A stretch of 64,000 nt of DNA from Tribonema minus (taxonomy: Eukaryota > Sar > Xanthophyceae > Tribonematales > Tribonemataceae), in assembly GCA_017506865.1 (NCBI GenBank), contig JAFCMP010000113.1, positions 372,001-436,000 on the forward strand, written 5' to 3'. How positions within the stretch are numbered: the stretch's first letter is position 1; the number at the start of each line of letters is the position of its first letter. The notes beneath the pieces are model-generated. The model made no database searches. It had not been told where the DNA came from and saw only the letters and a list, made by a program, of their open reading frames with translations. Made by a program: the position numbers and the translations under genes. Below are positions 3,942 through 62,293 of this stretch, piece after piece.

Positions 3942-6900
3942 GTGAGTGACACTGCTAGTGTAAATGTTTTTTAACGTCAGTGCCAGGGTAAGGCTTTGGC
4001 TAGGTTAGGGTTTGCATCCGTTGCATTGCAGTCAATTAGGGTTAGACATTTGGTTACATTCAGGGGTAGGGGAAGGCTAGGAGTGGGCTGACATGAAGGC
4101 ATGCTCTATGCACGTTGCGCGCCGCGCTGACTTGCCATGCATTTCGTGGTCCTTTCTGCGCTGTTGAGGATGCCCTGAATAATGTTTTGATACCACAAGT
4201 ATCGCTGCAGGCGTTGCATGCCCCCCCTCCCCCCCCCCCCCCCCCCCTTTCGCAATGGTGAGGCTGTGCCACAGACAGTGACAAAGCATGCTTGAAATGC
4301 ATCCCTTTACCCTTACTCTCCCTGGAACGGAGCTGATGTGATTGTCCCTTGCGCCCCTCCCTGCACAAAGCATGCTATTTTTCCACCTTCAAATTGAAGT
4401 TACTGCTCAAAGTTGCTCATCACTGAGCTTGAGTTCGCTCCTCAACAAGTTTGTCTGCGAATGCGCCTCGTTCGCTCGCAACTGCCGTGGGAGACACGCG
4501 CTGTGCATAAATATGCGGCAGGGGTCTCCCTGATGTTTCACTTCAGATTTGAAGTAGAGAAGTTGCACTTGCTGCTCGCAAAGCTCACATGCAGATGTTG
4601 TCTTCCTTTGCACCCCAGCGCCAATCCAAACTCCATCAGCACTCATTCCAATCCATGCCCTACCTCCAATCTACTCCTAAACCCTAACCCAACTCATTCA
4701 AGTCATCACTTTCGGTATGCCTCCACTTTTCAAAGCACTGCCATTACGACTGCGTGAGCTGGACTTAGGATCACTTTGTCCGCCCGCTTCGTCGCAAAAT
4801 GCCTGCAGCGCTAACTTTCTCTGTCGTACATTTCTCAATCAGCAGAATCAGCACGCCCGCCTGCTGCAGCAGACACGGTTCACCGCCAGTGCTGCAATTG
4901 GCACCGCGTTGTTGTTGTACTTCAACTACTTCAAGTTTGTGACATGCCGTTGTACCGGGTGCGGCATCTAGTGCTAGACCTGGGCACAGCAGACTTTGAT
5001 TCATCAGCTCTGACAGCTGTGCGTCTGTCGGCGCTGACCCTGGCGCCAGTCGCAGCACGTTCACACATGATGCACCGCAGCACTGTGCATGATGCCGCCG
5101 GACGCCGTACAAGCCTTGTTTGGGAACCATGCCTTCACCAAGTGACAACCCCATTTCCGCGCCGCTGCGCATGACGCGAGCGCAGCAACGAGCACGCTCT
5201 CCATGTGTCGCAGTACTTTGAAGTGAAACCTACTACTGCTACTATACTGATAAGTGCTGGAGCATATGGCAGTTACGTGCTCATTGCCGTTAGCACGCTT
5301 CACGGTTGCGGCAGTTACACTTGCCGACAGACTACAGTACAATGCACTTTAAGCAGCACACAACTGGCGCTGGTCTTCTGTTGCACAGTTTACCCTGATG
5401 TCTGCCTCTGCCGGGTGGACAACGGGCTAGTGAGCGACAGCTCTCTACGTTGCATTCAATAAGCTCGATTCCGCGCCGCACGCCTGCTGCCGCGCAGGAC
5501 GAGTACAGCAACGAGCAGGTGCGGCTCACGCAGCAGGCGCCACCAGCCGCGTCGTGCAAAACAGAAATTTACTACTGCTACTACCATGTTAATAAGCTCA
5601 GTTGAGCGCTGCGCACCTGCTGCGCCGTGCAGGAAGGGTACAGCAACGAGCAGGTGCAGCAGGCGCGCGCCAACAGCCGCGTCGTGCAGAAGGGAAATTT
5701 ACTACTACTACTACCATGTTAACAAGCTCAGTTGAGCGCTGCGCACCTGCTGCTGTGCAGGACGAGTACAGCAACGAGCAGGTGCGGCTCATGCAGCAGG
5801 CGCGCGCCAACAGCCGCGTCGTGCAGTTCCACGCCCCCGTCAACGCGTACACCGTGCCCGAGGCGCCCACGTACCGCCCCACCGTCGCGCAGTTCGCAGA
5901 CCCGCTCGCGTACATTGAGACGATTCGTGAGGAGGCGCAGAAGTGAGTGTGCACACCAATCACAATATATGCGTGTTATGGGTAGGTATGTATAGGTTCC
6001 AAGCGCCCGTCAACGCGTACACGGTGCCCGAGGCGCCCACGTACCGCCCCACCGCCGCGCAGTTCGCGGACCCGCTCGCGTACATTGAGACGATTCGTGA
6101 GGAGGCGCAGAAGTGATGTACTTCGAAGTACGGCGTAGCTTGTGACGAAGAACCTCACCCCAATTCTGTGCACTGAGACACTACACCAGGAGAAGGCGCG
6201 AAAGTTTGCGCTTGATTGGTGGCAGTACTGTTCCCACAGTTGATGCTGGTGAGCATGTTCACGTACATTTCTCAGCTCATGTGGGCGGTATACGCACGTG
6301 TATCATGTGGACTGTTGGCCGCCTCGAAGTTCAAGTATGCGCTACTTCGCTGAGTGACTCGCCCATCGCGCTGCTTCGGCTTCAGCTGCAATGACCGTGG
6401 CAACGTCCTTTCTTCCGCGCCAGCTGCATCAACCACGACAAGTCAAGCAACTGAGCACGCCTGTTTTTTGCTGAATGCATTCTTCGTTTCGCTGTGCTAA
6501 ATGAACTGACTCGGGTGCAGACCTACCCAAGTTCAGTGCACATATTGCTAGACTAATTGCCACTGACGGTAGTGACGCCCCTCCAGGTTGCCGAGTAAGC
6601 GGGGAGCATCCCATGCTCGCAGGAGCAGCTGATGATGGGCATGTGTCACAGGTTTCCTGAACTTCTCAGATTTGAGGCTCAAACTCTGCTACTTCATATA
6701 GAAGTATGGAAACGAATCAAACGATCGTAGAGCTCTAGGTGACAAGGGACGGTTAGCCGCAAGTGCCTTCCACCAATAATCGTGGTCGCCGCTGCTGCAG
6801 CAATTGGCCACAAGTCAAAAAGTACCACCGTATCCACCAGTCAAAAAGACTTCTGTGTGCTAAATCAACATGATCATTGCACCAGCATGCCTCTCTGAGT

Positions 6901-9900
6901 CAACAAGCAGGAGAGAGGTCCCATGCACAGCCGCGGAGGCTCGGACAACAGCATTGTCACTGAGGTCTGTGGTCGCAAGATGTATATATTTAAGTTGCGC
7001 GCTAATTGAGATGTATATATTGAAGTCGCGCGCTAATTGAGGTTTATCATAATATGGGTGTGGTGACTTGCCATGCGCACTTTGTCTGTCTTACAGCACA
7101 ACACCCTGACTTTACTGCTTGAAATGCTCCCTGCGCGCATTCAGGTATGGCATTGCCAAGATCATACCCCCACAGGGGTGGTCGCCGCCGCCGCCGCGCC
7201 CCGTCGAAGGCAAGCGGTTTCCCACTAAGGAGCAGGCGATACACACGCTCAGTCAGGGGCTCGACTACGAGGACGGCAAGGACTACACCATAGCAGGTAT
7301 GTAGGGTATGAGGGTATGTATACATGTAGGTTTGGTGCTATGAGGGTATGTATACATACCAGGTTACCATAGCAGGTTGTAGGGTATGAGGGTATGTGTA
7401 CATAGCAGGTATGTATGGTGTGGGGGTACGTATACAAAGCGGGTATATTGAAGGCAAGCGCTCGCCTACCAAGGAGCTGGTGATGCACACACTCAGTCAG
7501 GGGCTCGACTACGAGGACGGCAAGGACTACACCATAGCAGATACGTATGGTTTGAGGGAATGTATACATAGCGGGCATGTATGGTATGAGAGTATGTATA
7601 CACAGCTGTGTGCTGAAGGCAAGCGGTTTCCCACACACGATCAGCCAGGGGCTCGAGTACGAGGATGGCAAGGACTACACGATAACGAGTGCGCGTGGTA
7701 CTTTCTCCGTTTCAGATTTATTGACCAGTTGACGCTGAGATGCAACTTTTAAGATGCCAGCGACACAAACGACTCATCGATAATAAGTGATCAGCACCCC
7801 TTCGAGTAGGGTAAAACACATGACATAAAACTGTTGCGAAGCATGAGGGTATGTGTTAATCGTGTGCATGTAGCCTACCCCGCCTTTGAAGGGGTGTGTG
7901 TGCGCGAGGACATTTCCACTGTGAGAAAAGGTAGCAAGTGGAGACAATTAAATTACTCTTGCATGCCCAGGACTACATGGTGTGAATGTAGCCTACACGC
8001 TTGTGAAGGGTGGTGCGTTTTACGATGAGAAAAGGTAGCAAGTGGAGTCAAACATACCATGCATGTCCAGGACCACGGCAGTTGACGAATGCCCATGATA
8101 TGGCACTGCAGTGTGCCCGCCTGCTGGCCCAAAGGCTGTGGTGATGGTCACTCTTGCCGCATGCTTCCCTTCAACTTCAAGCCTGATTCCTCCAACTTCA
8201 ACCCCAAGCCTATTCAAACATCAGCCCTGACCGTGTGGGGTCACTCACCTGAGGTGCACGTGCGGTTTCTTCCCAAACCTCCCAGAGTTCAAGGCCATGG
8301 CGCACAAGTTCGCCGCGGACTGGAGCGCCAAGCACGGCCTAAGCGCTGCTGCCGCCGCCGCCGCCGCTGCGCCTGCCGACACCATTCCCGCCGCTGCTGC
8401 CGCTGCGCCCGCCGCCGCTGCCGCTGCCGCCGCCGCGGCGCCGCAGAACAGCGGCAGCGCGCCTGCGCGGCTGCCTACGCCCGCGGAGATTGCGCACATG
8501 GAGCTGGAGTACTGGCGCATGGTGGACGTGGGCGAGCCGCGAGCGACGGTTGAGTACGGCAACGACATCGACGTGAACGAGTTCTGGAGCGGGTTCCCCG
8601 CGCCGCCGCCGCAGCACATGGTCGCGGCGGCGGGCGAGTGGGCGGGGCGCGCGCTCGACTTTGCGCACAAGGACTACTACGCCAAGAGCGGGTGGGCTTA
8701 CGTCTCATGTGTTTATGAGGATTCTGTGCATGAATGTGTACTTCGAGGCATGGGGCATCATGCATGTATGTGCGGTGCACGTGTTCACCTTTGTGGTACA
8801 GTGGTCTAGGCAGAAACGGGTATGCTTTGCTATGACATGATGTAAATTACTCATGCTTCGAGCGGGTGCGCTCTCATCTTGTATGTGTGTGAGTAATTTA
8901 CGCATAGATATGTATGGGGGCATGCATGTATGCACGTGCAGCGGGCCACGCGCATGCTTGGCTTCAGCCACTATGGCGGCAGCAGTTTACGCAAAACAGG
9001 CAGGTCGGCATTGCCATGGCGTACTACAGATTTTTAGAGGACTTGAGCTTGGCGGTATGTACTTGATAAATCTGGAGCAGCACGTGTGTGGCATGAGAGT
9101 ACACTGGCGGCGCGCGAACTTGCCGTGGGCCACATGGACGGCTACGCCCAACGTGGGTGTGCTGGCGCACGTACACGCGCACGCACATGAGTCGGGGCAG
9201 CTGCGATGGGCGGCGCACGCGCATTCAGCGTTCGCCATCAAGACGGCGCTCGATTTGGGTATGTTGGTATGCATTACGCCAGTGTCGTCACGTCGCAGAG
9301 GCTGAGGGCCAGTTGTATGCGTCAGCTACTGCTTCAGCTACCGCCACTGACCCCTACTTTAACTGCCAACAACAATGCCCACGCCGCAGGTGGAACCTTT
9401 GCAACCTGCCGTTCTGGCGCGGGTCGGTGCTGCGCTGGTTCCGCCACAAGATCACCGGCGTCAACGTGCCCTGGCTGTACATCGGCATGCAGTTCACGAC
9501 GTTTGCATGGTGAGAATTGGGGGTAGAGCTAGGGTTAGGGTTAGGGTCCGCCACAAGATCACCGGCGTCAACGTGCCGTCGCTGTACATCAGCATGCAGT
9601 TAACGACGTTTGCATGGTGAGAATTGGGGTTAGAGTTAGGGTTAGGGTTAGGGTTTGCCACAAGATCACCAGCGTCACCACGTGCCGTGGCTGTACATCG
9701 GCATGCAGTTCACGACGTTCGCATGGTGATAATTGGGGGTAGGGTTGGGGTAAGGGTTAAGGGTCCGCTGGTCCGCCTCAAGATCACCGACGTCAATGTG
9801 CTGTGGCTGTACATTGACATGCAGTTCACGACTTTCGCATGATGAGAACTGGGGGTAGGGTCAGGGTTAGGGTTGTCTGCCACAATATCACCGGCGTCAA

Positions 9901-12900
9901 CGTGTCGTGGCTTTACATCGGCATGCAGTTCACAACTTTTGCATGGTTAGGATTAGGGGTAGGGTTAGGGTAAGCATAAGGGTTAGGATTGTCCGCAACA
10001 AGATCACCGACGTCAATGTGCCGTGGCTGTAGATTGGCATGCAGTTCACGACGTTTGCATGGTGAGGATTAGGGGTAGGGTTAGGTTCAGGGTGAGGGTG
10101 AGGGTTGGTGCTGGGAAGACACCACCTGTACGGCATCAGACTGGTCAGCATATAGAAAGTGTCCAATGTTGTGAGAAAGCGATGATCATGCGCGTGTCAC
10201 GACCAGAGTGGCATTGGCCCATGCAGTGAGTGTACATAGTGCCCAGGGTGTGTGCGCTTGCACTTGTCTGCCTCACGGTGCCACGTCGAGCTGTTCTCCA
10301 TTGCAGTGAGCGCGCGCCCCTACTTCATGAAGAAACAAATGTATTACCATCTCTACTTTTGTATGACCATGCCTGCATAGCATATGCATCAAGTGCCGCT
10401 GTTTAATGCGTTCTTCAACTTGAACTGCAGGCACAACGAGGACAACTACCTGTACAGCATCAACTACAACCACGAGGGCGCGCCCAAAATTGTGAGTTCA
10501 ACTTTGAAGTACTCAACCTCTACCTTGATGTAAAGACGTTGTACTTGACGTGTTTTCTGCAGCTCTTGCTCCTGTGCCGCTCTGTGCTGAGGGCCAGAGG
10601 TAAAACTAGGGCTAGGGGTAGGCGACCTACCTGTCAAAACAGCAGTGGGAATTTTGTGCAACGATCACTTCGCGCGTCAGGTTTCCATGATGGTGTAGGG
10701 CGGAAGTTGCGAGTCCAACCTTGGCGCCCTTCGAGTTCAGCAGACAGTGCACACGTCCTTTCTGAGGCGGTGGCGTGGCAATCCTGTTGCAGTTGATCTG
10801 GCACAGATTTATGTCTCCAACATATCCGGTTTTTTGAATGAACTTGCACTTGATGTGACAAGGGGGGCATATTGCTCATGGGAGGTGTTGAACCGCAATC
10901 GAGGGCTCAGGTTCGCGCTAGGGTCGGTGTTGAAGGTGGAAGTTAGGGTTAGGCTGCGCTTCAAGGTAGGGCGCATGCCCCAGGGTCAGGTTAGGGTTAT
11001 GGTGAGATAGGTGCATGCGTGAAGCAGTGTGCAACTCTCAGTGTCGCACTCCTCAGCCCGCCCTCTGCCGAGGCGTCAGCGGCGCCGCGCCATCTGTCCA
11101 TCTGTAACCGCTTTCCGCAATCGCCCCCATCTCTGCGCAGTGGTACGGCGTGCCGGGTGTCCAGGCGCGGAGCTTCGAGACGGCCGTGCGCGGCCACCTC
11201 CACCTGCATGTAGAACTACATCTCTTAACGTCGCACTCCGAGTGCTTCTCAGCGGCCGACCCTCTGCTGAACGGCGCTGCGCCCTCTGTCCATCTGTAAC
11301 CGCTTTCCGTAACCGCTCTCCCCCCCCCCCCGCACATAGTGGTACGGCGTGCCGGGCTCGCAGGCGCGGCGCTTCGAAACCGCCGTGCGCGGCCACCTCC
11401 ACCTCACCATGGAGGACGACCCCGAGCTCCTGTACAACATCACGACCATGGTGACGCCGGCGCTGCTGCGCGAGGCCAAGGTCTCAGTGTCGCGCGCGTG
11501 CCAGGACGCGGGGACGTTCGTCGTCACCTTCCCCAAGGCGTACCACGGCGGGTTCAGCACGGGTTACAACATGGGCGAGGTGAGGGCCGCCGCCGCTGCC
11601 GCTGCCGCTGCTGCTGCTGCTGCCGCTGCAGCTGTTGTGGAGCGCCGCTGCTTGTGCGAGTGCGTAGGGCATGTGTGTCGTCGTGGCGTTCCCCAAGGCG
11701 TACCACGGCGGGTTCACCGCGGGGTACAACACGGGCGAGGTGAGCGGTGCCGCCGCTGCTGTTGCTGCCGCTGTTGTTCAGTGCTGCTGCTGCCGCCGAG
11801 CGAGGCCTGCTGTGTGCGTGTCGCGCAAGGTTTGCCGTCGTGGCGCTACGCCAAGAAATACAGTGGCGGGCTCAGCAGGGGGGGGGGGGGGGCATTGGGG
11901 AGGTTATTGCTGCTGCTGCTGCTGAGCGCTGCTGCCAAGTGCTGCACTGCTTGCGCGCGTGGTGTCAGGGCATCGCAACACCGCATTACAGGATACCGCG
12001 TCCACCTCAAGCCATAGTGACCGGCGAGTCACAGCAGTGCAAGACTGGGCCTTCTGTCTGTGCTGGTACTCACGAGTGTCAAACTGGCGCAGCTTCACGC
12101 AGTGCCTCTAGGCCATCAGCTCAGCAACGCTCTGCTGGGCGGAGCAAGAGTACAGGAGCGACGAGCGCTGAAGGTGAAGTGCGTATTACAGCTGAAGTTG
12201 AAGTGCCAGAGTCGAAGTGCGTCAGAGCGCCTCTGGCACTAGGCAGTGCCCGATGGGCACGCTGTGCCGCCCGGTGAAACAGTGCGGCGACACCTGGATT
12301 GTTGAAATGCGCTGATTGCACGGCTATCGTCCCCCGTGGGCTGTCAACTTGGCGATGCCCAGGCAGGTGGAAGTTTGGGCACGAGAGCAATGAGCGCTAC
12401 TATCACTTGTAGAGAGTGATCTACCAACAGGCTTGAAGTACATGCTCAAAGTTCAAGTGCACTGAAACTTCCCGCGTTACACAAGCAAATGTACGAGCCC
12501 CTGATTCCCGTTTTGAATGCGCTAATTTTCTGTGTGCTCTGCAGGCCGTGAACTTTGCGATGCCTGACTGGGTGAAGTTTGGACACGAGAGCAACGAGCG
12601 CTACCGCCTGTCGTCGCGCGCGAGCGTCTTCTCCTACGACCGCATGGCCTTCATGCTCGCCATGTACCTGCCGGAGCACACGCTGCAGTCGTGCAAGGCG
12701 GTGCTCACGGAAGTCAGGTCAGTGTTCAGTCGGCGAAGGGAATCAAACGTATTATATACACCCATACCTGCCCAAGCACATGCTGCAGTTGTGCAAGGCG
12801 GTGCCCTTGAAGGTCAGGTCAGTGCTCAAATGCCGGTATGTAGGCTTCAGATGCGCCATATACCCATACCTGCCCCAGCGCGCGCAGCAGTCGGCAGCGC

Positions 12901-14600: not shown

Positions 14601-14603
14601 TTG

Positions 14604-14636
<33 letters not shown>

Positions 14637-17325: not shown

Positions 17326-17385
<60 letters not shown>

Positions 17386-26866: not shown

Positions 26867-26903
<37 letters not shown>

Positions 26904-34400: not shown

Positions 34401-35039
34401 TGATACTCACCTTGACCCCGCCTGAATATGCGCAGCCGTCCAGCCGGAACACCTACTCAACTCCAATTACCTAGCGTTTACGCACTATGCCAAGCCAAAT
34501 GTGCAGTAGTACCTACCTATACCCCGCCTGTACGCGCAGCCGCGCGGCCGCTCCGCCGCAATTCCTGCCCATACTTCTACTACCTACCCACACCCCCTCG
34601 CTGCGTGCGCAGGCCCGCCGCCGCCGCGCAGCCTGTGCGCGCGCGGCGAGTCGCTGCGATACCTTACCTTACCCAGTGTTACGATACCTACCCAGTGTTC
34701 TGATACCCAGTGTTTCAATACCTACCCATACCCCCCCTGCGCGCGCAGGCCCGCCGCCGCTGCGCAGCCGGTGCGCCGTGATCGGCAGCGGCGCGCGCGG
34801 CGACCTGCTGCCGCTACCTTACCTTACCCAGTGTCATGATGCCTACCCAGTGTTCTAACACCTACCCATACCCCCCTCTCCCCCCGCCTGCGCGCGCAGG
34901 CCCGCCGCCGCTGCGCAGCCTGTGCGTGGTGATCGGCAGCGGCGCGCGCGGCGACCCGCTGCCGCCCGACCACGCGATGGACCCACGCAAGAGCCTCAAC
35001 CGTGGCAAGTACGGCGACGAGGTGTACCTGGCGCACCAG
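31483..35039 (+). CDS. MABP-DENN exons 1-3: MABP beta-prism domain
   Basis: The three exons encode the three repeats of the MABP beta-prism. Repeat 1: INDIVVVAPK with KADLNSGALY and FLAIRKQ. Repeat 2: IAGVDVYFGP, LPQGWELITTT, ANLNKGG, YLAVKRA. Repeat 3: LRSLCVVIG, KSLNRGKYGDEVYLAH. D/N-L-N-x-G in each repeat is the family hallmark; MABP domains bind acidic membranes. Junctions split Ser (AG|C) and Gly (G|GC) codons. The third exon appears to use a GC donor, GCGAGT at 35040. The start ATG at 31483 gives a short acidic N-terminus. Confidence 0.88.
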
Positions 35040-39873: not shown

Positions 39874-39904
<31 letters not shown>

Positions 39905-44797: not shown

Positions 44798-44863
<66 letters not shown>

Positions 44864-53800: not shown

Positions 53801-56800
53801 GATATGTGTGTCTCAACATGTACACACGTCGTCAAGTTGTTTGACAGGTCAGGGCTCAGGAGGTCCAGCATGGATTTGCGGACTGTCGTTAGCGCGAGTC
53901 ACGTGTAAACGTATCACATTTGTGCCTACATGTATGTCACATCGGCAAGTCGTTTGGCAGGGCATGCCTCAGGACATCTAGCGTGGACCTGCGTTCGTCC
54001 AGGCTGTCGCTAGCGTGAGCGGTATGTTTATGTACTGCGATGTGGATGCGCTTCGCAGTATATACACCAGCGAGTCATTCAACAAGCCACGGCGCAATGG
54101 GGGTCCAGCATGGACCTGTGGTCGTCCGGGCTGTAATCCCAATCCTAACTGTAATCCTGACCGTAACCCAAACCCTAGCGCGAATAGTATATGTGTGTAG
54201 TGTATGTACGTGCTCACATACATAAAGCGTGGTACTGCCGCTCTACTTTCAGTGCATGTGTATCGTGACGCGGCAACTGCTGCTGCATGGAACTGCGACG
54301 AGCGTAACTCGCAAAACCTAACCCTATCCTAACCGTAACCCTAGCCCTGACCTCAACACTTTTTCTGAACTCTTTGCCCATCACCCAGTGTGCACACATC
54401 GCGACACGGGTCGCATTGAACGCACCCGCAAAGAGCCCTGTCTCAAGTAAGGGAGGGCCTTCAGAGCAATCAGCGGCAGTTACACCACTGCAAGCTCACC
54501 CATGAATGAATACAGACCGTGCCCTTGGCTCCTGACCTCCCGTGAATCAGGGTTAGGGTTAGCGGGCAACTGTGAGTGCAGAGATGTGCTGCCGAGCCAC
54601 ATAGGGTTAGGGTGAGGGTTATGATTAGGGTTAGGGTTCGAGCTAAGGTTACTAAGGGTGCACAGCGCACCGCACCGCATTCTCCGCACGCCGCCGATCA
54701 CACGCAGAATTGCTTCTGATGACTCCCCCCCCCCTCCCCCCCCCATGTCCGCCTGCAATCACACGGAGCCGCTACTAATGACCCTTTCCCCCCCCCTCCG
54801 GCCCCCCTCCCCCCCCTGCGGCAGTACGGTGGCCATGAGCGTGCGCGCGTCCATCGCCATGCAATTACACGGAACACTTACCGTACTGATGACCCTCTCC
54901 CCCCCCCCTCCGGCCCCCCTCCCCCTCCCCCCCCCCCTTCCCCCTTCCGCCTGCAGCACGGTCGCCATGAGCGTGCGCGCGTCCATCGCCATGCGCAGCC
55001 GCGCCAAGCTGTCGCTCTCGCTGCTGTCCCCCGCGAACGCCGTCCCCGAGGTGCCCCCGCCCCCCCCCGCCGCCGACAAGGGGAAGGAGGGGGAGGGGGA
55101 CGCCGACAGGGGGGGCGGCGACGACGAGGGGAAGTGGTCCGACAGGGTCACGCCGCTCGCCATGTGGAGCGCCGCGCGCTGCGCGGCGTGCGCGTACTGC
55201 CTGATGGACGAAGAGGTAACCATGGCGGCAGCGCTTTCGAATCCTGCTTCATCATTCCGTCTGCTGAGGGCCGCGCGCTGCGCCGCGTGCGCCTACTGAC
55301 GAGGAGGTGATCACGGTGGCAGCAGTCGTACATTTTGGTTCGTATTTCCATGTTTAAAGTGTCAGTAGCGCGCTGCGCCTCGTGCGCGTACTGCCTGATG
55401 GACGAGGAGGTAAGCATGGTGACTGCAGCTGTGCGCCGGATAGGTAGAATGTGATCAGCACCGCATTCTCGCCCTGACCGTACCCCCGAGCTTACGGCCT
55501 CAACCGTCACCTCAGCCCTCGTCGGCGGTGCACTGAGCGGCGTGCGCCTACTGCCTCGTGGACGCGCAGGTGATTACGGTGGCAGCAGCTTCAGATCTTG
55601 ATTCACTATTTCTAAGTTTGTGTTTAGTTGAGAGTAAATCCATTTTTTTTCCATGGATGAGACCATATCTGTGGCAGCAGTTGTGCCTGAACTATGTTTG
55701 GATGTGATCACCAACCCTACCCGTAAACCCAACCTTATGGCCATGCCCCGCCCTCAACCGTAACCTTAGCCCTCATTGGCGGTGCGCTGCAGGACCTGCG
55801 CCTACTGCTAACCCTAACCCTGAGATGGAAGAGGAGGTGATCGTGGTGGCTGCAGTGGTGCGTTGGATGTGTTGATGTGATTATCACGCAACCCTAACCG
55901 TTAACCTAAGCCTGCGGCCTTTGCCCTGCCCGCGTGTGAATGTGCTCATCGCCTCACCCTAGTCCTAACCTTGACCCTAACCCTAACCCTAGGCCTAATC
56001 CGACAGCCTTGCCCTGCCCTGAACTGCAAGCTTAGCCCTCATCGGCGGTGCACTGGGACCTGCGCCTACTTCTTGATGTACAAGGAGGTAACTGCAGTGG
56101 CTGCAGTTATGTGCGGCGATTCCAGGTGTCGCGCGTGATAGCCGTCTGGAGCGTTGTCGCCTTGTCACCAACTCTAACCCTAACCCTAGCGCGCGGTGGG
56201 CTGCGCGGCGTGCGCCTACTGCCTGATGAGCAAAAGGTGATCGCATGGAGTCGGCGGAGGCTGATGTTTGGGCTGTTGCGAGTGCACATGATCATCCTGC
56301 GCGGCCTAGCCCTAATCTCAATATATACCTTAACCGTAACCCCATAGCCAAGTCAGAAACATGGACAGAGCTTTGGATGAATTCTTGCGAGATCATGCAG
56401 ATTGTCGTGCGCCGAGCATCGTGTGCCGTGCCGCAGCAAGGGTTATATGCTTCTCGGCGTCAGCAGCACCTGTCTGACTGAGGAGGACTGGCGGCGGCGA
56501 GTTGTTGCTAGGATTAGGGTTAGGGTTAGGTTAGGGTTAAGGTTAGGTTTAGGGTAAACAGAGCGCCGTCGGGTGAAGGCGGGAAAGTCAAACCCTAACC
56601 TAAGCGCTGGAGACCGTACAGCACATTTAGCGGTTTGGGCATTAGACGCACAAGACCCCGGGCCCTACAATACGAGTACTTGGTGCGCGTGAACTGCGCA
56701 CTTCAGCACTTCAGAAGCACGTACTCGAGCATCAACACACTCCAGGTATGCACGTATGCAAGCATGACGCCATGCACACAGCCTGCGCGGACCCATTCCC

Positions 56801-59800
56801 ACCCACTACCTACCCGCTGGCGCGCAAGTGACCCCCCTGCGTGACAGCGCTCACCCCCCCCTCCCCCCACCCCCCGCAGGTCATGGCCGGCTGGCGCCAC
56901 ACCGACACCGAGGACTACAAGGTCGAGTGCCCGCGCTGCTCCGAGCCGCTCGTCCCCAAGCTCTCGTACCGCACCTACAAGCACCCGCGCGACGCCGCCG
57001 CCGCCGCAGCGGCGTCCGCCGCGGACGCCGCCGCCGCCGCCGCTGCCCGCCGCCGCCGCCGCCGCGCCGCCGCGCCGCGCCGCCGCCGCCGCCGCGGCGC
57101 AGTCGCACTCGCCGCCGTCCCCGTCGCACCGCGCGCACGACAGCGGCCCGGGGGCGCTGCAGTCCGTGACGGCGTCGCCGTCGCCGCGCAACAGCCTCAA
57201 CGCCGGAGGCGGCGCCGCCGCCGCCGCGGGGCGCGCGTCGCGCTCGCTCTCCATGCCCAATGACGGTGGCGGCGCCGCGCCGTCGCCGCTCAGCGCCGCC
57301 GCCCTCGGCGACGCCGCCGCCGCCGTCGCCGCCGCCGTCGCCGCCGCCTCGGAGGCGGGCTCCCCGGACGAGTACGGCAGCCCTGGCGGCGGCAGCGGCG
57401 GGCGCGTCGCATTCGCGGCAAACGACGGCGGCACGCCGCCGGGGCGGCGCTCGCGCACGGGGAGCCAGTCGCCGCCACAGAGCCCGCGGCCGCAGCAGCG
57501 GCCGTCGCTCGTGCGCGGGCTGTCGCTGGATGAGCGCTCGCCGCCGCGGCCGGGCGCGCCGCCATGCGCATTCGCGGACGCGGTGGCGGCGGCGGCGGCG
57601 GCGGAGGCGTCACGCGCGCCGCTGCAGCGGTGAGCGACGAAAGAGCGGCAGGGTAGAAGTCAGCGGCTGCAGCAGCGCTTGCAGCAGCTCTGCGCGTATG
57701 CATGAGTGCCGCCACGAACGTGGGGCAAGCAAGCTGGTGCGAGGTCCGTAGTTACTGAGCGCTGCTGCTGCTGCTGTCGCCGCCATTGGCGTTTGGACCT
57801 GGCGGCGGCGGCGGCGGCGGCGGCTGCGGCGGCAGATGCAGTGCGCAACGGCTCTGAACACATCAGATGACTACGATTTTCCTGTGGCATTCAGGAGCTG
57901 AGCCTTGTCAAGTCTTGCGTCTGAATCAAGCAAGGCAGCTGCTCAGAACCCTCACTCGAATTACCTCTCACCTCAGAATTACGTACTATCAACTCAAGCT
58001 CTCAGCAACACGGTGTTCACGCGATCTCAGATGGAGCAGCCGCCTGGAGGGGGGCGGCGGGGGCAGCATGTCCCCCATCGGCGGGGGGGCGACCGAGAGG
58101 CATGACAGCTGGCACGCCGCGGGGGGCAAGCGCGGCGGCCCCTACGGAAGCATCAGCGGCAGCCTGCCGCCGGACTCCGAGGGCGTAGTCATATACCTGA
58201 GGTGAGCGCTGCCGCAACTAAAAATAAGTGTGCTTGAGTCGACTTACTTTGAGCTGAAGTGCCGCGGGGGGCAAAGCGCGGTGGCCTCGTACGGCAGCGT
58301 CAGCGGCGCCTGACTCGGATGGCGTCGTCATATACCTGAGGCGAACGCTGCATTGAGTCAATGCACCTGCAGTTGAAGTGCTGCGGGGGGCAAGCGCGGT
58401 GGCCCCTATGGGAGCATCAGCGGCAGCCTGCCGGACTCCGAAGGCGTCGTTATATACTTGAGGTGAGCATTGCAAGAACAGTACGCTCGAGTTGACGTAC
58501 TTGAAGTTGACGTGCAGGGGGGGGGCAGCGCGATGGCCCTAGTGCAGCATCAGCGGTCGCCTGCCACCCTCGTCTGACAGCGTTGTTGTAGGTATACCTG
58601 AGGTGAGCACTGCAGCAATTGCATGCTGATGCTTCAGCAACTTACTTTCTCCAAGAGGGAGCTGTCAGCGTCAGTCGCGGTCTGCTCTCTTGGACACCGT
58701 CAATCGTACCTGAATCCGACTGGATGCTTCAACTTGCAGTTTGAACTTCCAAGGCAGGAGCGTCAGCGTCAGCCTCGCCGCCGGACTCTGTGAGCGTTGG
58801 CAGTGTCCAAGCCGAGGCTCGCGACACAGTTCGGTTAAACTTTAACTTGTAAGGTGGTACACGGTATTTCCAGGCCATTATAATCGAGCTCGTCAGCGCT
58901 GCTGCTGCGTGGACGTCTGCCAACATTCAATGGCCACCGTCATGATTTTCATCATGGATTTTGGTGTTGCACCATCGACGGCTCACTCCACGCAAGGCGC
59001 GCATCGTCGCCGCTGCTACCACCACTTGAACTTTGCGTTGCGGCCCCGTTTGTGGTGCTGCGGCGGCAGCCGGCGCATCAGCAGCTGAAACCACGACGCA
59101 CGCTGCATGCTTTCCTTATCAAAACCACCGTTTACAGCATCGTCATCATGCTGTTGACGGGTCGCGCTGTGTGGTAGTGCGGAGACGCCGGAGCGGACGT
59201 GCGATGCGCAGTCTGCGCATGCGTTCAAATTCCTGTGTGGCTGTGGCGGCAGCTGGAGCGTCTGCAGTTCACGCGTGGCGCTCCGCGCTTGTGTCCAACT
59301 ATGCTGAGGATCACAGCATCACCACTACAGTATCAATGTTTGCGCCTGCAGCCCCGTGGTGCTGCGGCAGCTGTACTGCAACTATGCTGAGCATCACTAT
59401 CGCCGCTGTTGATATGTTGCGCCTGCAGCCCCGTGGTGCTGCGGCGGCAGCTGGAGCGCCTGCAGCTGTACCTCAACTTTGCTGAGCATCATCATCACCG
59501 CAATCGATGTTTGCTTCTGTGTTGCTTATCAGCTAGGGCTCTGCTTCAGCTACGTGCCTCGTGTTGCTGGCCTGTGCCAGACAACAAGTGATGGCACTAC
59601 GCTGCTGCTTCCGTGAGTCTCTCCGCAAAAGCTTCACATTCTATTCCATACGCTTGTTTCCCTTGCGCTGCAGCCCCGTGGTGCTGCGGCGGCAGCTGGA
59701 GCGTCTGCAGCTGACGCACGGCGTCGACTCCCTCACGGTGGAGTGGGTGCGGCGCCACCGGCGGCACTTGTACTGGAACATCGTCTGGTTTACCACGCGC

Positions 59801-62293
59801 CTCGGGTAAGCGCACACTTGTAGTGGACGGAAACATTTTGATAGGAACACACAAACCAACGGCTGCAAACCCTAACTTAACTCTAACCCTAACCCTAACC
59901 CTAACCCTACCCACCGGCGGCACCTCTACTGGAACATTGTCTGGTTCATAACGCGCCTCGGGTGAGCGCGCACTTGTAGACAGGAGCACCTTGATAGGAA
60001 AACAAAGACCAGCATCGCAGGACCTCGCTGTTCATTGTGCACGGGTGGGCAACACGTTCATACACACACAAACTTCGCAGTGTATCATTTTGAATTCAAA
60101 TGATACACTGCGAAGTTTGTGCGCAAGTGTTTTTCACATGCACCGGCGCTACCTGTACTGACATATCGTCTGATCCAGCATGTGCATCGGTGAGCCCGTG
60201 CTCTTGCTGCAGCAGGCAGCGGCAGGTAGCCAACAGAGTAACCATTAAGACTACAATTGCTGGCCACGTGCATAATCAGAGGAGTACGCTTTGGAGCAAG
60301 ACGCATCGTTAACCGGCAAGGTCGGGGGCCTACCGTTCATGACATATGGTTGTCACTCTGCGGGCATCCTTGAGCCACCCAGCATCAAGCTGGCCCAGCC
60401 CCCCCCCCCTCCTCCCCCCCGAAGTTGCATGGCCTCACACGCGCCCCCCCTCCTGCTGTCGCTGCCACCACCGCCGCCCACCCGTCCGCCCCCCAGGCTC
60501 CCCATGCCGCTGCGGCAGTCGGAGCGGAACCGCCGCGTGCGCAGCCGCCGCCAGCAGCAGCGCTCGCCGTCCCCTGCCGCCGACAGCACTGGCGCCGCCG
60601 CCGCCGCCGCCGCGGCAGCGCCGGAGTTCGACGAAGTGCCGGTGGTGTCGTGGCAGCGCCCCGCGGCGATGGCGCGCGCCGCGCAGCTGGCGGCATGGGC
60701 GGCGGCGGGCGGCGGCGGCGGCGTGCGCGCGGGCGCGCTCGCGCCTGCGGCTCTGCTGGCGTGCGTGCTGCCGCCGCCGCCGCTGGCGGCGCTGTTCCCC
60801 GGGCTGTCGCCGCGCGAGACGGAGGCGCTGAACGGCGTCCTCACCATGCTGCACCTCAGGTGGGGGGGGGGCGCGGTGTCCTGTGTGCAAGAGCAATGTA
60901 GAGGTCTGGTGCGGGGAATGGGGGTCTGAGCAGCTGGCAGTGCGATCGCTTGTAGAAGGAATGTCAGCCCTTCAAAGCAGCCCCACCCCATGTCTTTGGT
61001 GCTGTATTACCAGGGGCAAGCAGATGTACATTTTCAGGATCCGATGTGCAATGGTTGTATTTGAATCGTCGTTCAGCTGGCCCTGCCCTGTCAAATCAAC
61101 AGCGCGCAAGATGGCGTCGTCGCTTCTCATGTCCACCCGCCAGTTTCGACTCTGCAGCTCAGCTGCGCCCACGCGCACCCAGCACTGCCGGCGCCCGCAC
61201 CCGCGCTCTCTCCAACTTCAACACTTGATGCCCTAAACTTCAAACCTCGCGGCGCGCGCAGGCACTCCCACGGCCTCGGAGACGTGCTGCGCAAGCTGCA
61301 GCAGCTGCGCGCGCCGGCGCCGCCGCCCACGGCCGAGTCGCGGCGCCTGAGCTACTGCGGCGGCGGCAGCCCTTTCTTCAGCTGCGGCGGCGGCAGCGGC
61401 GCCACGAGCGGCCTCCACGAGGGCGCGTACGTGACGCTGTTGAAGTTGATAGCGGCGACGCACGTCGGCGGCGACCTGGACGTGCGCGCCAGCATCGCTC
61501 AGGTACGGTTCTGCGCGCGCTAGGGTTAGTGCTAGGGTTAGGTAGGGTCAACATTGAAGTTGAGGTTAGGTGCGCGCGAGGCGGGTGTGTGCTGCAGAAC
61601 CCCACTCAATCGCCAACTCATTGGTGCCAACGCACGCACCCAGGAGCTCGGAGTTTTAGCCCACGTGTGTGCGTGCACAGCTCAAGCCCAGGAAGGCGGT
61701 GATGCGCATACGCAGACTGCTGTTAACGAACACAGTTTTGTTGCGTACCCATGGGCTGTATGCGAGCGGTCCATCACGCCCGTTGCCAACACACAAGCTC
61801 TCTCATGGTGGCCTAGCCCCAAGTAGCAGCTGCGTACCATGTCGCCGTGCTCCCCACGTGTTACCTGCAGCAGCCCCTTCTACATCACAACAACTGTCGT
61901 TGGTGGCTGACGTCGTGGCTCATTGCCTGAGCGCTGCCGCAGCTGCGCGAGAGCGACACGCTGCCGCCGTTCGAGCGCGCCTTCGTCGCCAGCGTGCAGG
62001 CCATGGCGGACAGGGGCAGCGGCGGCGGCGCGGCAGCAGCAGCGGCAGCGGCGACGGCGCAGCGCAAGGGCGGCATCAGTAGGGAGCCCTCGCTGAGCGC
62101 TGTTGCGGCGCCTGCGGCAGCGCCGGCGGTGGTAGCAGCGTCAGCGGCAGCGGCGGCAGCGACTCCCATGGGCGCGGGGCCGCGCGCGGCGGCGGCGCAC
62201 GAGCGGCGGGTGAGCGCCGCCGTGCTGCAGCTGTTGGACGAGCTGCCGAGCGATCGCGCGCTCGCGTACCGCAGCATCTGGGGGTATGTGTAG
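31483..62293 (+). CDS. DENND4/Crag-like MABP-DENN protein, putative Rab GEF
   Basis: DENN proteins catalyse GDP-GTP exchange on Rab GTPases in membrane traffic; DENND4/Crag acts on Rab10/Rab11 in animals. Exons: 31483-31787, 32524-32696, 34900-35039, 36125-36277, 37106-37273, 39068-39353, 39710-40386, 41460-41626, 42619-42670, 43357-43414, 43450-44162, 44421-44483, 44749-44878, 45010-45320, 47137-47217, 48119-48358, 49149-49243, 49664-49838, 50338-50595, 51426-51608, 52672-52992, 53324-53466, 54957-55215, 56880-57629, 58040-58201, 59674-59805, 60497-60859, 61262-61502, 61943-62293. Order: MABP (1-206), uDENN (207-313), cDENN (about 410-710), dDENN (about 1030-1160), PPR-like (about 1530-1583), zinc-binding MAGW block (about 1700-1735), SPVVLRRQLE block, C-terminus. 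Total about 2,380 aa, longer than animal DENND4 because of Ala/Gly-rich inserts. One frame jump lies inside the 56880 exon. Exons 43357-44878 are least certain. Confidence 0.85.
32787..33465 (+). repeat. Five downstream echoes of MABP exon 2
   Basis: Copies near 32787, 32898, 33008, 33108 and 33420 repeat CTGGCGGTGAAGCGGGCGCG through GACATCATCGATGGTGAGC. Several keep the donor. Repeat family A copy 3 is inserted between the fourth and fifth. Confidence 0.88.
33202..33354 (+). repeat. Dispersed repeat family A, copy 3
   Basis: It lies in the MABP-DENN intron 2 among echo copies of exon 2. It shares AGATCGTAGAGCTCTAGGTG with copy 1 and the CCACCAATAA, GTGGTCGCCGCTGCTG and CCACAGTAGTC blocks with the others. 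Confidence 0.78.
34300..34860 (+). repeat. Upstream echoes of MABP exon 3 (about five)
   Basis: The clearest copies start at 34613 and 34749. Each repeats a GCGCAG acceptor, GCCCGCCGCCGCTGCGCAGC and a TACCTTACCCAGTG linker. Weaker copies lie near 34310, 34430 and 34530. Confidence 0.8.
35999..36765 (+). repeat. Echoes on both sides of uDENN exon 4
   Basis: One upstream copy (35999-36065) repeats GTGGGCGAAGCGCCCACGGT. Four downstream copies (near 36335, 36473, 36603 and 36733) repeat GCACGCGCCTCATCTACAGG and the donor. The real exon is 36125-36277. Confidence 0.85.
36125..37273 (+). CDS. MABP-DENN exons 4-5: upstream DENN (uDENN)
   Basis: Exon 4 (36125-36277): LGEAPTVCALPYRSAIQERY, PFCPFPQTQLPMFLYPDG. 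Exon 5 (37106-37273): FFPLVFTDINGRHNFAGCLT followed by FYEPVPEKRV. These match the uDENN order PxxxxFCFP, then F-x-x-T-x-x-x-G-x-x-x-Y-G/A-x-x-x-x-FYE. Both exons are phase 0 at both ends. Confidence 0.9.
37428..37852 (+). repeat. Three downstream echoes of uDENN exon 5
   Basis: Copies near 37428, 37675 and 37797 repeat GTGCGCTACGTGCGCCACGC to CGCAGGGTGAGC. A TTAGGG tract at 37568-37606 lies among them. Confidence 0.88.
37568..37606 (+). repeat. TTAGGG tract
   Basis: Five to six units in the MABP-DENN intron among echoes of uDENN exon 5. Confidence 0.9.
38018..38025. repeat. Left target-site duplication CGCAAGAC
   Basis: This is identical to the 8 bp at 38755-38762 on the other side of the hAT-like element. 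Confidence 0.8.
38026..38754. mobile_element. hAT-like non-autonomous transposon with 8-bp target-site duplication
   Basis: The two ends are inverted: TAGGGTTGGCAC at 38026 and GTGCCAACCCTA ending at 38754. They continue inward as imperfect AT-rich TATACGCGTATA-like inverted repeats of roughly 100 bp. The element is flanked by a perfect 8-bp direct repeat CGCAAGAC (38018-38025 and 38755-38762). An 8-bp duplication and a (C/T)AGGG-type terminus are hAT superfamily hallmarks. At 729 bp it cannot encode a full transposase. A minus-strand stretch near 38510 (VWDFLEVG) might be a relic of a BED-type N-terminus, but this is weak. It sits in the intron between the uDENN exon 37106-37273 and exon 39068. 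Confidence 0.8.
38755..38762. repeat. Right target-site duplication CGCAAGAC
   Basis: This is identical to the 8 bp at 38018-38025 on the other side of the hAT-like element. Confidence 0.8.
39068..42670 (+). CDS. MABP-DENN exons 6-9: acidic linker and core DENN (cDENN)
   Basis: Exon 6 (39068-39353) is a linker with a strongly acidic run (GDDDTDDNNEDEDDDEDD). Exon 7 (39710-40386) has VYAPKTICAISRAPIYGTLR, a poly-Gly loop, then FRCLGVANAMAVFGLMLQEA and KLVFLSTRLALLTQ. Exon 8 (41460-41626): VMEGFRALLFPLEWQSLYVP, ILPAALSGCLEAPGGFMIGI. Exon 9 (42619-42670): LNLAGQAHMVNLDLNE. These are the classical cDENN motifs (ALF-P-x-x-W, Y-x-P-x-L-P, P-x-P-F-x-x-G, V-D-L-D). A possible 15-nt microexon at 42907-42921 would also keep phase. 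Confidence 0.9.
40985..42110 (+). repeat. Echoes on both sides of cDENN exon 8
   Basis: Upstream copies (about 41000-41035, 41262-41320) repeat ATGGAGGGGTTCCGCGCGCT. Downstream copies (about 41712, 41780-41883, 41935-41992, 42045-42105) repeat GCGGACATGGAGGTCGGCAC and GATCGCGAGGTGCGTCAC. The real exon is 41460-41626. Confidence 0.88.
42766..42823 (+). repeat. Downstream echo of cDENN exon 9
   Basis: A copy of CTGAATCTGGCGGGGCAGGC to AACCTGGACCTC with a GTGAGC donor. No AG precedes it, so it is not an independent exon. Confidence 0.85.
43357..44878 (+). CDS. MABP-DENN exons 10-13: low-complexity linker before dDENN
   Basis: ILLPSGKFYRD (43357-43414) continues the cDENN LP motif. The downstream frame (ANGYAVNHQIARKTSPNLPP, TKAYLPLPPGVRAALAARLA, DVYSDPFTGG) is shifted by two bases. 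A 35-nt C-rich intron at 43415-43449, or a length error in the C-run, would connect them. Exon 44421-44483 (EQHRSAARSKLLGAAAANAL) and a Gly/Ser exon 44749-44878 are supported only by phase and splice sites. Confidence 0.5.
44760..44866 (+). repeat. GGC triplet repeat before dDENN
   Basis: A long GGC/AGC tract, probably a Gly/Ser linker exon (44749-44878). All three frames are open through it, so the frame rests on splice phase only. Confidence 0.85.
45010..47217 (+). CDS. MABP-DENN exons 14-15: downstream DENN (dDENN)
   Basis: Exon 45010-45320: ALRDAFLCAMVDMLGDLGQH, RLFDTASFLEQVEHVSRPFV, QALTTTQ. Exon 47137-47217: MFWVLVQQWVEISENDDKLV then FFEDCVK. This is the dDENN helical set: R-x-A-F-L, FD-x-x-x-FL, PF-x-x-x-L-x-x-TQ-x-F. 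The join at 45320/47137 restores the conserved TQ-MF. The 1.8-kb intron between them is filled with copies of the first exon's end. Confidence 0.9.
45362..46215 (+). repeat. Series of downstream echoes of dDENN exon 45010-45320
   Basis: At least six alternating copies repeat GTTCGTGCAGGCGCTGACGA and TTTGACACGGTGTTGTTGCT. The linkers resemble CATCTAGGGTTTGAAGTAGG. The copies at 45478-45660 and 45715-45890 are themselves a longer tandem pair of about 240 bp. Confidence 0.88.
46866..46950 (+). repeat. Upstream echo of dDENN exon 47137
   Basis: This repeats CGGAATGCCGCT, a long C-run, GTGCAG and ATGTTCTGGGCGCTGGTG-like sequence, as found at 47085-47155. Confidence 0.85.
47698..47726 (+). repeat. 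TTAGGG tract
   Basis: Four units in the intron after dDENN exon 47137-47217. Confidence 0.85.
48119..51608 (+). CDS. MABP-DENN exons 16-20: central linker
   Basis: Exon 48119-48358 (VWKQRRLKAAA, then Gly-rich; an internal donor at 48269 is also possible). Exon 49149-49243 (TKGVKMLLHSAPGAMAAHIG). Exon 49664-49838 (acidic SEEEDEDDSGDD and a Cys cluster CNDCGGPGSC). Exon 50338-50595 (AKRLAKELSLHDAS, Pro-rich). Exon 51426-51608 (EALPAVLQKLRTHAILAA; an alternative donor at 51525 keeps phase). No domain was recognised; all junctions keep phase. Confidence 0.7.
48981..49076 (+). repeat. CTG/CCG triplet repeat in intron
   Basis: A CTGCTGCTG-type tract upstream of the acceptor at 49148. It may serve as the polypyrimidine tract; open frames through it are fortuitous. 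Confidence 0.8.
49312..49460 (+). repeat. Downstream echoes of exon 49149-49243
   Basis: The first copy (about 49312-49352) repeats GTGCCCTCCGCGCACGTGCA-like sequence and the donor; a second partial copy is near 49420. Intervening text (GCTGAGCGATGTGCACA) is also duplicated. Confidence 0.75.
49936..50000 (+). repeat. Downstream echo of exon 49664-49838
   Basis: This repeats GGGACGAGATGCTGCTGAGC through GCGGCGGTGCAGGTGCG. Confidence 0.85.
50045..50071. repeat. CCCTAA tract
   Basis: Four units shortly after the echo at 49936-50000. Confidence 0.85.
50652..50695 (+). repeat. Downstream echo of exon 50338-50595
   Basis: This repeats CTGGAAGCTGTCGGACGCGC with a GTGGGT-like donor, a diverged copy of CTGGAAGTTGCTGGAGGCGC. 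Confidence 0.7.
51262..51425 (+). repeat. Dispersed repeat family B, copy 1 (3' end of an intron)
   Basis: About 160 bp sharing CAGCTACGTGCCT, AAGTGATG, CGCTGCTTCC, CGCAAAA and ACATTC in order with 59520-59673. It ends exactly at the acceptor of the exon 51426-51608. Confidence 0.65.
51672..51790 (+). repeat. Downstream echo of exon 51426-51608
   Basis: This repeats GGCGGGGGCTGCGCC, GCGGCGGAG, GGGCTGC and the ATCGATGGTGGGGTAGGCTG end. Confidence 0.8.
51959..52617 (+). repeat. Five upstream echoes of PPR exon 52672
   Basis: Copies at about 51959, 52094, 52243, 52395 and 52545 repeat GCGCTGCGCGTGTACGTCTC through GCCGAGCGCTGTCACGAGCA. Period is about 140-150 bp, most with a pseudo-acceptor CAG in front. 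This is the clearest upstream series in the window. Confidence 0.92.
52672..53466 (+). CDS. MABP-DENN exons 21-22: PPR-like segment
   Basis: Exon 52672-52992 encodes ALRVYVSAFAVHLLCLPS and then MWRYVLVACGHVGG with VAAALFDAMRACAITPNSVT, YGLYTKAL. This is a pentatricopeptide-type helical hairpin (F-x-x-M-x-x-x-x-I-x-P-N-x-V-T-Y). DENND4 proteins carry a PPR motif at the same place after dDENN. Exon 53324-53466 has YLEEMGMQWCEAAVGESFDR and a Ser/Arg-rich end. Confidence 0.85.
53230..53280 (+). repeat. Upstream echo of exon 53324-53466
   Basis: This repeats the CTCGCTGCCGCAG acceptor and CGCTTCAAGTCCATGGGCGG. Confidence 0.88.
53568..54135 (+). repeat. Four downstream echoes of exon 53324-53466
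   Basis: Copies near 53568, 53830, 53942 and 54062 repeat GGCGAGTC, TTTGACAGG and CTCAGGAGGTCCAGC. They diverge progressively away from the exon. Confidence 0.82.
54829..54885 (+). repeat. Upstream echo of exon 54957-55215
   Basis: This repeats GTGGCCATGAGCGTGCGCGC and GTCCATCGCCATGC after a long C-run, with CGGCAG as pseudo-acceptor. Confidence 0.88.
54957..57629 (+). CDS. MABP-DENN exons 23-24: zinc-ribbon-like MAGW block with a frame jump
   Basis: Exon 54957-55215 ends CAACAYCLMDEE. Exon 56880-57629 begins VMAGWRHTDTEDYKVECPRC then SEPLVPKLSY. Together they give C-x2-C-x2-C ... DEE-x-MAGW ... C-P-x-C ... LVP, the conserved C-terminal cysteine block of DENND4 proteins. Beyond about 57000 the frame runs into a GCC repeat. 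The sensible continuation (SPSPRNSLNAGG, SLSMPNDGGG, VRGLSLDERSPP) is in a different frame, implying a net one-base excess within 57000-57100, or an unseen splice. Confidence 0.8.
55263..56240 (+). repeat. About six downstream echoes of exon 54957-55215
   Basis: Copies near 55265, 55365, 55530, 55785, 56050 and 56200 repeat GCGCGCTGCGCGGCGTGCGC, CTACTGCCTGATGGACGAGG and the GAGGTAAC donor. The intervening linkers carry CCTAACCCTAA-type tracts. They copy the Cys-coding part of the zinc-binding block. Confidence 0.88.
56513..56556 (+). repeat. TTAGGG-like tract
   Basis: Interrupted TTAGGG/TTAGG units in the intron before exon 56880. Confidence 0.82.
58040..62293 (+). CDS. MABP-DENN exons 25-29: C-terminal region
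   Basis: Exon 58040-58201 is Gly-rich (HDSWHAAGGKRGGPYGSISG). Exon 59674-59805 has SPVVLRRQLERL and HLYWNIVWFTTRLG, matching the SPLVLRKELE...WNLVWYF-x-RL block that ends DENND4 proteins. Exon 60497-60859 starts LPMPLRQSERNRRV. Exon 61262-61502 has HSHGLGDVLRKLQQL. The last exon, 61943-62293, has LRESDTLPPFERAFVASVQA and RVSAAVLQLLDELPSDRALA, and stops at TAG 62291-62293. Confidence 0.83.
58255..58610 (+). repeat. Three downstream echoes of exon 58040-58201
   Basis: Copies near 58258, 58378 and 58515 repeat GGGGGCAAGCGCGGTGGCCC, AGCATCAGCGGC and ATATACCTGAGGTGAGC. Confidence 0.87.
59036..59500 (+). repeat. Upstream echoes of exon 59674-59805 (about four)
   Basis: Copies near 59040, 59235, 59345 and 59430 repeat GCAGCCCCGTGGTGCTGCGG and CGGCAGCTGGAGCGTCTGCA, separated by CTGAGCATCA-type linkers. 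Confidence 0.85.
59520..59673 (+). repeat. Dispersed repeat family B, copy 2 (3' end of an intron)
   Basis: Same ordered blocks as 51262-51425. It ends at the CTGCAG acceptor of the exon 59674-59805. Two introns of one gene therefore share a homologous 3' end although the exons differ. Confidence 0.65.
59882..59910. repeat. CCCTAA tract
   Basis: Four units directly before the first downstream echo of exon 59674-59805. Confidence 0.85.
59915..60195 (+). repeat. Downstream echoes of exon 59674-59805 (two copies)
   Basis: A close copy at 59917-59965 (CACCGGCGGCACCTCTACTG to CGCCTCGGGTGAGC) and a decayed copy at about 60142-60195. The perfect inverted repeat 60067-60121 lies between them. Confidence 0.85.
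60067..60121. repeat. Perfect 24-bp inverted repeat with 7-nt loop
   Basis: The left arm 60067-60090 and right arm 60098-60121 are exact reverse complements around TGAATTC. RNA from either strand would form a strong hairpin. It lies in the intron between exons 59674-59805 and 60497-60859, just before a decayed copy of the first exon's end. Confidence 0.9.

Follow-up and report, generated by a model that had tools for sequence, protein, structure and literature searches.

The window considered here is a stretch of 64,000 nucleotides, positions 372001-436000 of contig C113 in the 158-Mb assembly of the yellow-green alga Tribonema minus (Xanthophyceae). It contains two genes on the forward strand and, at about 24-30 kb, fragments of a gene on the minus strand. 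The exons of gene 1 join into a single clean frame, and the best database match of the resulting protein is the deposited T. minus protein JKP88DRAFT_348135 (P0001). The alignment of the two extends over 795 columns, 160 of which are gaps, and 633 of the remaining 635 columns are identical. Gene 2 was identified from protein matches with PF03456/PF02141; a search with its protein returned six matches of the DENN-domain type, none of the six labelled Tribonema. Its exons were placed by hand, with consistent open frames in most, the two awkward cases being 43357-44166 and 56880-57629. The exon at 35039 has an uncertain boundary: its donor is apparently GC (GCGAGT), or else the exon ends some 20 nt further on. 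Copies of exon edges, referred to below as echoes, lie within the introns of both genes. The genes and the echo arrays, in window coordinates, are as follows.

2803-14600, forward strand: gene 1, KDM5/JARID1-type JmjN-JmjC-C5HC2 histone demethylase, 12 exons, 693 aa
31483-62283, forward strand: gene 2, DENN-domain protein, 26 coding exons placed, end not fixed
5458-6116, forward strand: echo arrays at both edges of exon 5761-5942; acceptor unit about 133 bp, donor unit about 170 bp
7206-7684, forward strand: donor-side echoes, exon end 7296
9433-10107, forward strand: six-unit donor-side array, exon end 9509, unit about 107 bp
11080-11404, forward strand: acceptor-side echo, exon start 11340
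11518-11882, forward strand: donor-side echoes, exon end 11579
12339-12604, forward strand: copy of the first 60 nt, exon start 12545; scored as non-touching, 1 nt of intron aligned
12665-12891, forward strand: donor-side echoes, exon end 12717
13202-13655, forward strand: donor-side array, exon end 13241, unit about 100 bp
14088-14389, forward strand: acceptor-side echo, exon start 14333
32653-33474, forward strand: donor-side array, exon end 32696
34312-34965, forward strand: acceptor-side array, exon start 34900
35863-36190, forward strand: acceptor-side echo, exon start 36125
36217-36809, forward strand: donor-side array, exon end 36277
37213-37890, forward strand: donor-side echoes, exon end 37273
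38916-39099, forward strand: acceptor-side echo, exon start 39068
40848-41502, forward strand: acceptor-side array, exon start 41460
41531-42108, forward strand: donor-side nested array, exon end 41626; two copies 97% alike
42624-42874, forward strand: donor-side echo, exon end 42670
45230-46483, forward strand: donor-side array, exon end 45320
46827-47154, forward strand: acceptor-side echo, exon start 47137
49199-49440, forward strand: donor-side echo, exon end 49243
49777-49998, forward strand: donor-side echo, exon end 49838
51868-52752, forward strand: acceptor-side array, exon start 52672
53215-53377, forward strand: acceptor-side echo, exon start 53324
53392-54134, forward strand: donor-side echoes, exon end 53466
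54750-54994, forward strand: acceptor-side echo, exon start 54957
55167-56228, forward strand: donor-side echoes, exon end 55215
58116-58618, forward strand: donor-side array, exon end 58201
59296-59693, forward strand: acceptor-side echoes, exon start 59674, partly simple sequence
59755-60011, forward strand: donor-side echo, exon end 59805

Comparison of the window with itself, the check that the initial annotation had proposed, bears out the tandem nature of these copies. With a local match defined as one of at least 45 bits between copies no more than 1.5 kb apart, there were 126 same-strand and 7 opposite-strand local matches in the window, and 112 and 8, respectively, in a 200-kb sample from two other contigs; simple-sequence matches were removed (5 of the 126 in the window, none of the 112 in the sample). 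The copies thus lie in the same orientation, head to tail, as tandem duplications do. In genes 1 and 2, the adjoining intron holds a junction-spanning copy, containing both exon and intron sequence, at 30 of the 72 junctions (18 of 36 donors and 12 of 36 acceptors), and by our own count 25 of the 36 introns carry at least one array.

The core claim of the initial annotation, that tandem echoes centred on splice junctions are present in the introns, is therefore upheld by these counts and by the shift test described below. Its figure of at least 70 copies is close to the 67 that we counted in the two genes, and its unit size of about 60-240 bp, occurring one to six times, agrees with our range of 82-232 bp (5th-95th percentile, 84 units, all data) and one to six copies per array. 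That echoes fill most introns was an overstatement, detectable repeats making up 34-36% of intron bases, or about a third. For comparison, repeat coverage is 39% in the outermost 60 nt of exons and 9% in exon interiors; outside the two genes, it is 5% at 14.6-24 kb, 13% at 24-30 kb, and 0% in three other flanking stretches. Echoes had also been claimed for three genes on both strands. Two of these are confirmed, and the third, on the minus strand at about 24-30 kb, is only fragmentary, with local repeats crossing two predicted exon edges, 25564 and 27673, by our own reading. Minus-strand examples of echoes are present at other loci.

The association with junctions was assessed by displacing the exons by 250-700 bp and recounting the clusters of local repeats that cross a junction. 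In the window, 29 of 37 clusters cross one, as compared with 14.3 (sd 2.5) for shifted exons, and none of 2000 shifts reached the observed number. The 200-kb sample, in which 16 of the 20 stretches come from a single contig (C17) and the 95 exons are our own ab initio predictions, as are all exons outside the window, gave 31 of 64 clusters against 12.0 (sd 2.3), again with none of 2000 shifts reaching the observed number. When all data were pooled, 86 of 350 junctions were spanned, compared with 42.9 (sd 6.2) after shifting and 58 in the largest of 200 shifts; outside the window, a local repeat spans 57 of 278 predicted junctions.

The pooled data include ABC-transporter loci found by a Pfam search blind to repeats, which show the same picture by eye and contribute to the pooled shift test only, without a shift test of their own. 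There are 22 such loci, of which L047, L049, and L050 were omitted from both analyses, and L029 from the exon-depth count, as overlapping others; 19 were thus viewed for echoes and 18 entered the exon-depth count, with L001-L008 left aside. The table of 132 kinesin family-model matches is an independent sighting of junction echoes, as two exon ends in it are matched again shortly downstream, at C246:700950/701357 and C511:561699/562024.

There are 37 window clusters in the shift test and 36 when matches are confined to the two gene spans. By our own reading, the 7 non-touching clusters include four (12339, 35037, 51225, and 51530) that begin or end no more than 6 nt from a junction, one (43561) inside a low-complexity exon, and only two (7859-8076 and 50942-51102) that are clearly confined to an intron; all 7 were scored as misses. 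Junction echoes are real, far above chance, and recur at other loci.

The duplicated unit has a characteristic anatomy, with typically about 50 nt from the exon and 80 nt from the intron. Among the nearest copies (n = 85), the quartiles are 39-66 nt for the exon part and 57-121 nt for the intron part. The exon-side boundary peaks at 30-75 nt into the exon in all three data sets. Only the deepest boundary of each junction was retained, so that intron-only repeats there go unseen. Of the 114 array boundaries, 95 fell inside exons and 19 outside; depth exceeded 90 nt in just 5 of the 95 and 120 nt in none, with a median of 59 nt for donors and 44 nt for acceptors. In exons of at least 200 nt, none of 34 boundaries is deeper than 120 nt, compared with 36% for shifted exons, and the median, 53 nt for all exons, is 47 nt for those of at least 200 nt and 45 nt for those of at least 260 nt. 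Depth therefore does not grow with exon length, a result that bears on the idea of a nucleosome centred on the exon. Donors are spanned more often than acceptors (54 of 175 versus 33 of 175). Junctions of long exons, of at least 400 nt, are spanned less often (5 of 48) than those of exons of 120-179 nt (32 of 90); exons below 120 nt give 10 of 62. Stop-codon edges offer a natural unspliced control, and none was spanned among the only seven available.

Alignments that end just beyond the junction had raised the idea that exon edges are copied alone, without the intron. This was rejected as a rule. The intron part is still homologous (z of at least 4) in 61 of 87 nearest copies, so the units are mostly tandem duplications straddling the junction and not copies of an exon edge; 9 of 68 well-kept copies have no remaining intron homology. 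Identity is about 0.89 in the exon part and about 0.69 in the intron part, the latter whatever the identity of the exon. Among 15 well-kept pairs, some of which are not at junctions, 6 abut with an overlap of 1-10 nt, a possible microhomology, where the copies meet; 5 others are multi-copy, and the remaining 4, decayed at the edge, end 9-14 nt short. The expectation that copies decay with distance from the exon is borne out as a weak trend (mean Spearman coefficient of -0.29 over 19 arrays), and falls short of a clear decay, the nearest copy being the better preserved in 24 cases and the worse in 15 (P = 0.2).

How much of this pattern requires anything special about splice junctions is the main question of interpretation. 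Small tandem duplications could arise uniformly, be purged from exons, and decay elsewhere, leaving those that span a junction as the most visible because their exon copy is conserved. Tandem duplications do occur in gene-poor loci, where 11 clusters in 40 kb give the base rate, and purely within introns, and the greater identity of the exon half means that it stays alignable for longer. We simulated such a process on genes 1 and 2, with a uniform rate, purging in exons, and slower decay of the exon copy. Touching events made up 25-27% of those detected, the median exon depth was 74-79 nt, and 37-39% of depths exceeded 90 nt and 19-21% exceeded 120 nt, in contrast to the 5 of 95 and 0 of 95 observed.

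The rates in this simulation were only roughly calibrated, and intron halves have diverged further in reality than in the simulation, so measured detectability was used instead: 49 of 85 units would be findable if the whole unit resembled its intron half. The corrected expectation, which also allows for intron sequence hidden in arrays and reuses the simulated event ratio with an assumed depth factor of 0.9, is that 32-46% of clusters should touch a junction. The observed 29 of 36 exceeds this (P of 3e-9 to 2e-5), with an excess of 5-9 in odds. Two effects must inflate the apparent excess to some degree: the exon half decays more slowly, and arrays take in intron-only repeats from their vicinity. 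Even so, uniform duplication predicts, over both calculations, that only 25-46% of clusters touch a junction, the shallow depth that it fails to predict holds in long exons too, and the rarity of intron-only events is unexplained by purging. Neither decay nor purging accounts for the shallow exon depth. Since the corrected expectation also lies below the observed count, we favor the view that junctions truly are duplicated more often than other sites, by a factor of five to nine in odds, over and above the background rate seen elsewhere, and consider it unlikely that uniform duplication is the whole explanation.

A second possibility is that selection at junctions retains echoes for a function, whether as splicing enhancers, as decoy splice sites, or as alternative exons. 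In P0001, six gene 1 echo segments, located by mapping looked-up peptides to the window, are coding (5633-5683, 6003-6113, 7453-7539, 7646-7687, 11141-11206, and 11677-11739). Relative to the echo-free gene 1, 155 residues of P0001 fall in gap columns, with 5 gap columns the opposite way, by our own count. Repeats inside a conserved JmjN/JmjC protein would be unlikely in a main isoform, and we take the six segments as annotation of echoes, although occasional use is possible. Deposited T. minus gene models may accordingly be inflated by echo exons.

Over 161 copies aligned to their exon, with predicted frames outside the window, mismatches by codon position are 0.071, 0.064, and 0.161. Third positions thus differ more than first and second, as a coding role would have it, an excess that by our own estimate is about what synonymous change in the real exon alone would give. 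Indels in the same copies are frame-breaking in 46 cases and multiples of three in 11, which disfavors coding or alternative exons; together with the mismatches, this pattern fits non-coding decay of the copy combined with synonymous change in the real exon. The initial annotation was nearly right that copies always carry the splice site, as 72 of 87 nearest copies retain the splice dinucleotide. Such retention might suggest selection, yet by a rough estimate it is about what would be expected for two sites at 7-10% divergence and is probably close to neutral. The suggestion that echoes supply decoy or alternative splice sites is so far unsupported, and we regard a selected function as very improbable.

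The literature offers a third explanation, intron gain by tandem duplication. According to the available part of a review, tandem duplication of exon segments bearing AGGT is a source of new introns (PMC3443670), and Drosophila cases are described in the available passages of another paper (PMC2891723). As presented there, such events resemble those in Tribonema in that a small local tandem duplication supplies intronic sequence; they differ in that exon-internal sequence is duplicated to give a new intron, whereas in Tribonema existing junctions are copied and existing introns grow. In the AGGT model, the first bases of the new intron repeat the beginning of the downstream exon, and its last bases repeat the final part of the upstream exon. 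In the Tribonema genes, the copies on the donor side consist of the end of the same exon with its donor, those on the acceptor side contain the start of the same exon, and both adjoin introns that already have two splice sites. The duplicated segments are not exonic with a new intron between the copies, and because they straddle existing junctions, they do not fit the model.

The point in favor of intron gain is the potato RdRp gene, in which, from the portion of the report available, a tandem duplication across an intron-exon boundary, which includes the start of the exon together with the polypyrimidine tract and the 3' splice site, gave rise to a new intron whose splicing is shown by RNA reads; an 83-bp duplication within the first intron is described there too (PMC4974935). 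This is the nearest precedent among the sources as available, as the duplicated segment likewise crosses an exon-intron boundary. It is, however, a single spliced event in one gene, whereas the Tribonema events, read from DNA, occur at many loci, on both the donor and acceptor sides, and are mostly decayed. As an account of the echoes, intron gain of the classical kind has only the slimmest of chances. Although tandem copies are hard to assemble and a few pairs are 97-100% alike, an assembly or sequencing artefact is scarcely credible and was rejected: most copies differ by 3-30%, with indels, they are overwhelmingly same-strand, and they lie at many loci on several contigs, so the collapse in an independent assembly that had been named as a refutation does not fit.

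Introners are intron-generating transposons with dispersed relatives at many loci. They resemble the Tribonema echoes in that intron sequence is multiplied in an algal genome and differ in being dispersed, whereas the echoes are local and gene-specific within the window. No exon echo was recognized in the best 40 of 55 distant or inverted window matches, which are mostly telomere-like or GC-rich simple sequence, along with one palindrome and two dispersed repeats. A transposon or introner origin was rejected as the copies are local within the window, same-strand, and head-to-tail, in line with the earlier remark that ordinary intron growth by transposons does not explain junction-centred copying.

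The reading that we prefer, with a probability of about 0.6, is that the nuclear splice junctions of T. minus are hot spots of small head-to-tail tandem duplication, tolerated through the surviving junction on the exon body. It builds on the head-to-tail structure, the junction excess, the shallow exon depth, and the non-coding decay observed at many loci on several contigs. In outline, a block with the splice site near its middle, about 50 nt of it exonic and about 80 nt intronic, would be duplicated, more often at donors than at acceptors. Such an allele would be tolerated because one functional junction remains attached to the exon body. That junction, to judge from the reading frame, would stay in use, so the extra copies would fall inside the intron, lengthening it and then decaying as non-coding DNA; recurrent events at the same junction would build up arrays. 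Selection presumably removes duplications that lie within an exon or take in a whole one, since these would alter the mRNA.

The cause may lie in broken DNA or stalled forks at junctions while genes are being transcribed or their transcripts spliced, with paused polymerase, R-loops, and positioned nucleosomes as candidate triggers and with repair by fill-in and end joining or by template switching. Given the excess over uniform duplication, the initial suggestion that replication or repair drives a process at splice junctions is reasonable in this respect. A plausible repair route is provided by the small tandem duplications that arise in mammalian cells from induced breaks through CST-guided Pol alpha-primase fill-in and end joining (PMC8355091, in the passages available). 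Like those in Tribonema, they are small and tandem, and they need no repeats or homology to form; by contrast, that system is mammalian, its breaks are induced, and the available passages make no link to splice sites, whereas the Tribonema process is proposed from sequence. A bolder version of the hot-spot reading would have splicing or transcription itself break or slip DNA at splice sites, the hot spots copying themselves and acting as the chief engine of intron growth in Tribonema. This we put forward tentatively, as the less probable form.

Intron growth without transposons is poorly understood, and in Tribonema one can still tell where each piece came from, and the events are frequent. 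As the target is the splice junction itself, whether transcription and splicing provoke local duplication becomes directly testable in a culturable alga, and the bolder version, if true, would link spliceosome activity to local genome duplication. To judge by the sources as available, a single junction-crossing duplication was already known, in potato (PMC4974935), which qualifies the original remark that the phenomenon has no name, and what is new is the recurrence at many loci, centred on junctions. No description of a genome-wide, junction-centred process was found among the literature matches listed, at the level of titles and abstract openings and with most subscription journals outside their scope. 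The findings also carry a practical warning, in that T. minus gene models can carry echo exons, as in the 155 residues of the KDM5-type P0001.

Several other features of the sequence deserve mention. Introns of both genes and the DNA between the genes contain copies, 82-85% alike, of a dispersed repeat about 155 bp long (6705-6860, 33204-33360, and, in reverse, 25406-25557), which may be a small transposable element. A weaker one, of 83 columns and 75% alike, is found in two introns of gene 2 (51265-51345 and 59524-59606), another intron stretch of which contains a near-perfect 55-bp palindrome (60067-60121, 96% self-complementary). Many short interstitial TTAGGG/CCCTAA telomere-like arrays are scattered through introns and intergenic DNA (18945-19022, 21514-21558, 24838-24905, 50045-50071, and others), sometimes within echo units. 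In a gene-poor stretch elsewhere (L025, 100-1280), there is an exact (100%) direct repeat at an offset of 971 bp. Finally, three protein-kinase matches, at C144:145514 (G000), C223:530795, and C278:13472, have identical E-value, score, and frame length, which suggests recently duplicated segments or haplotypes.
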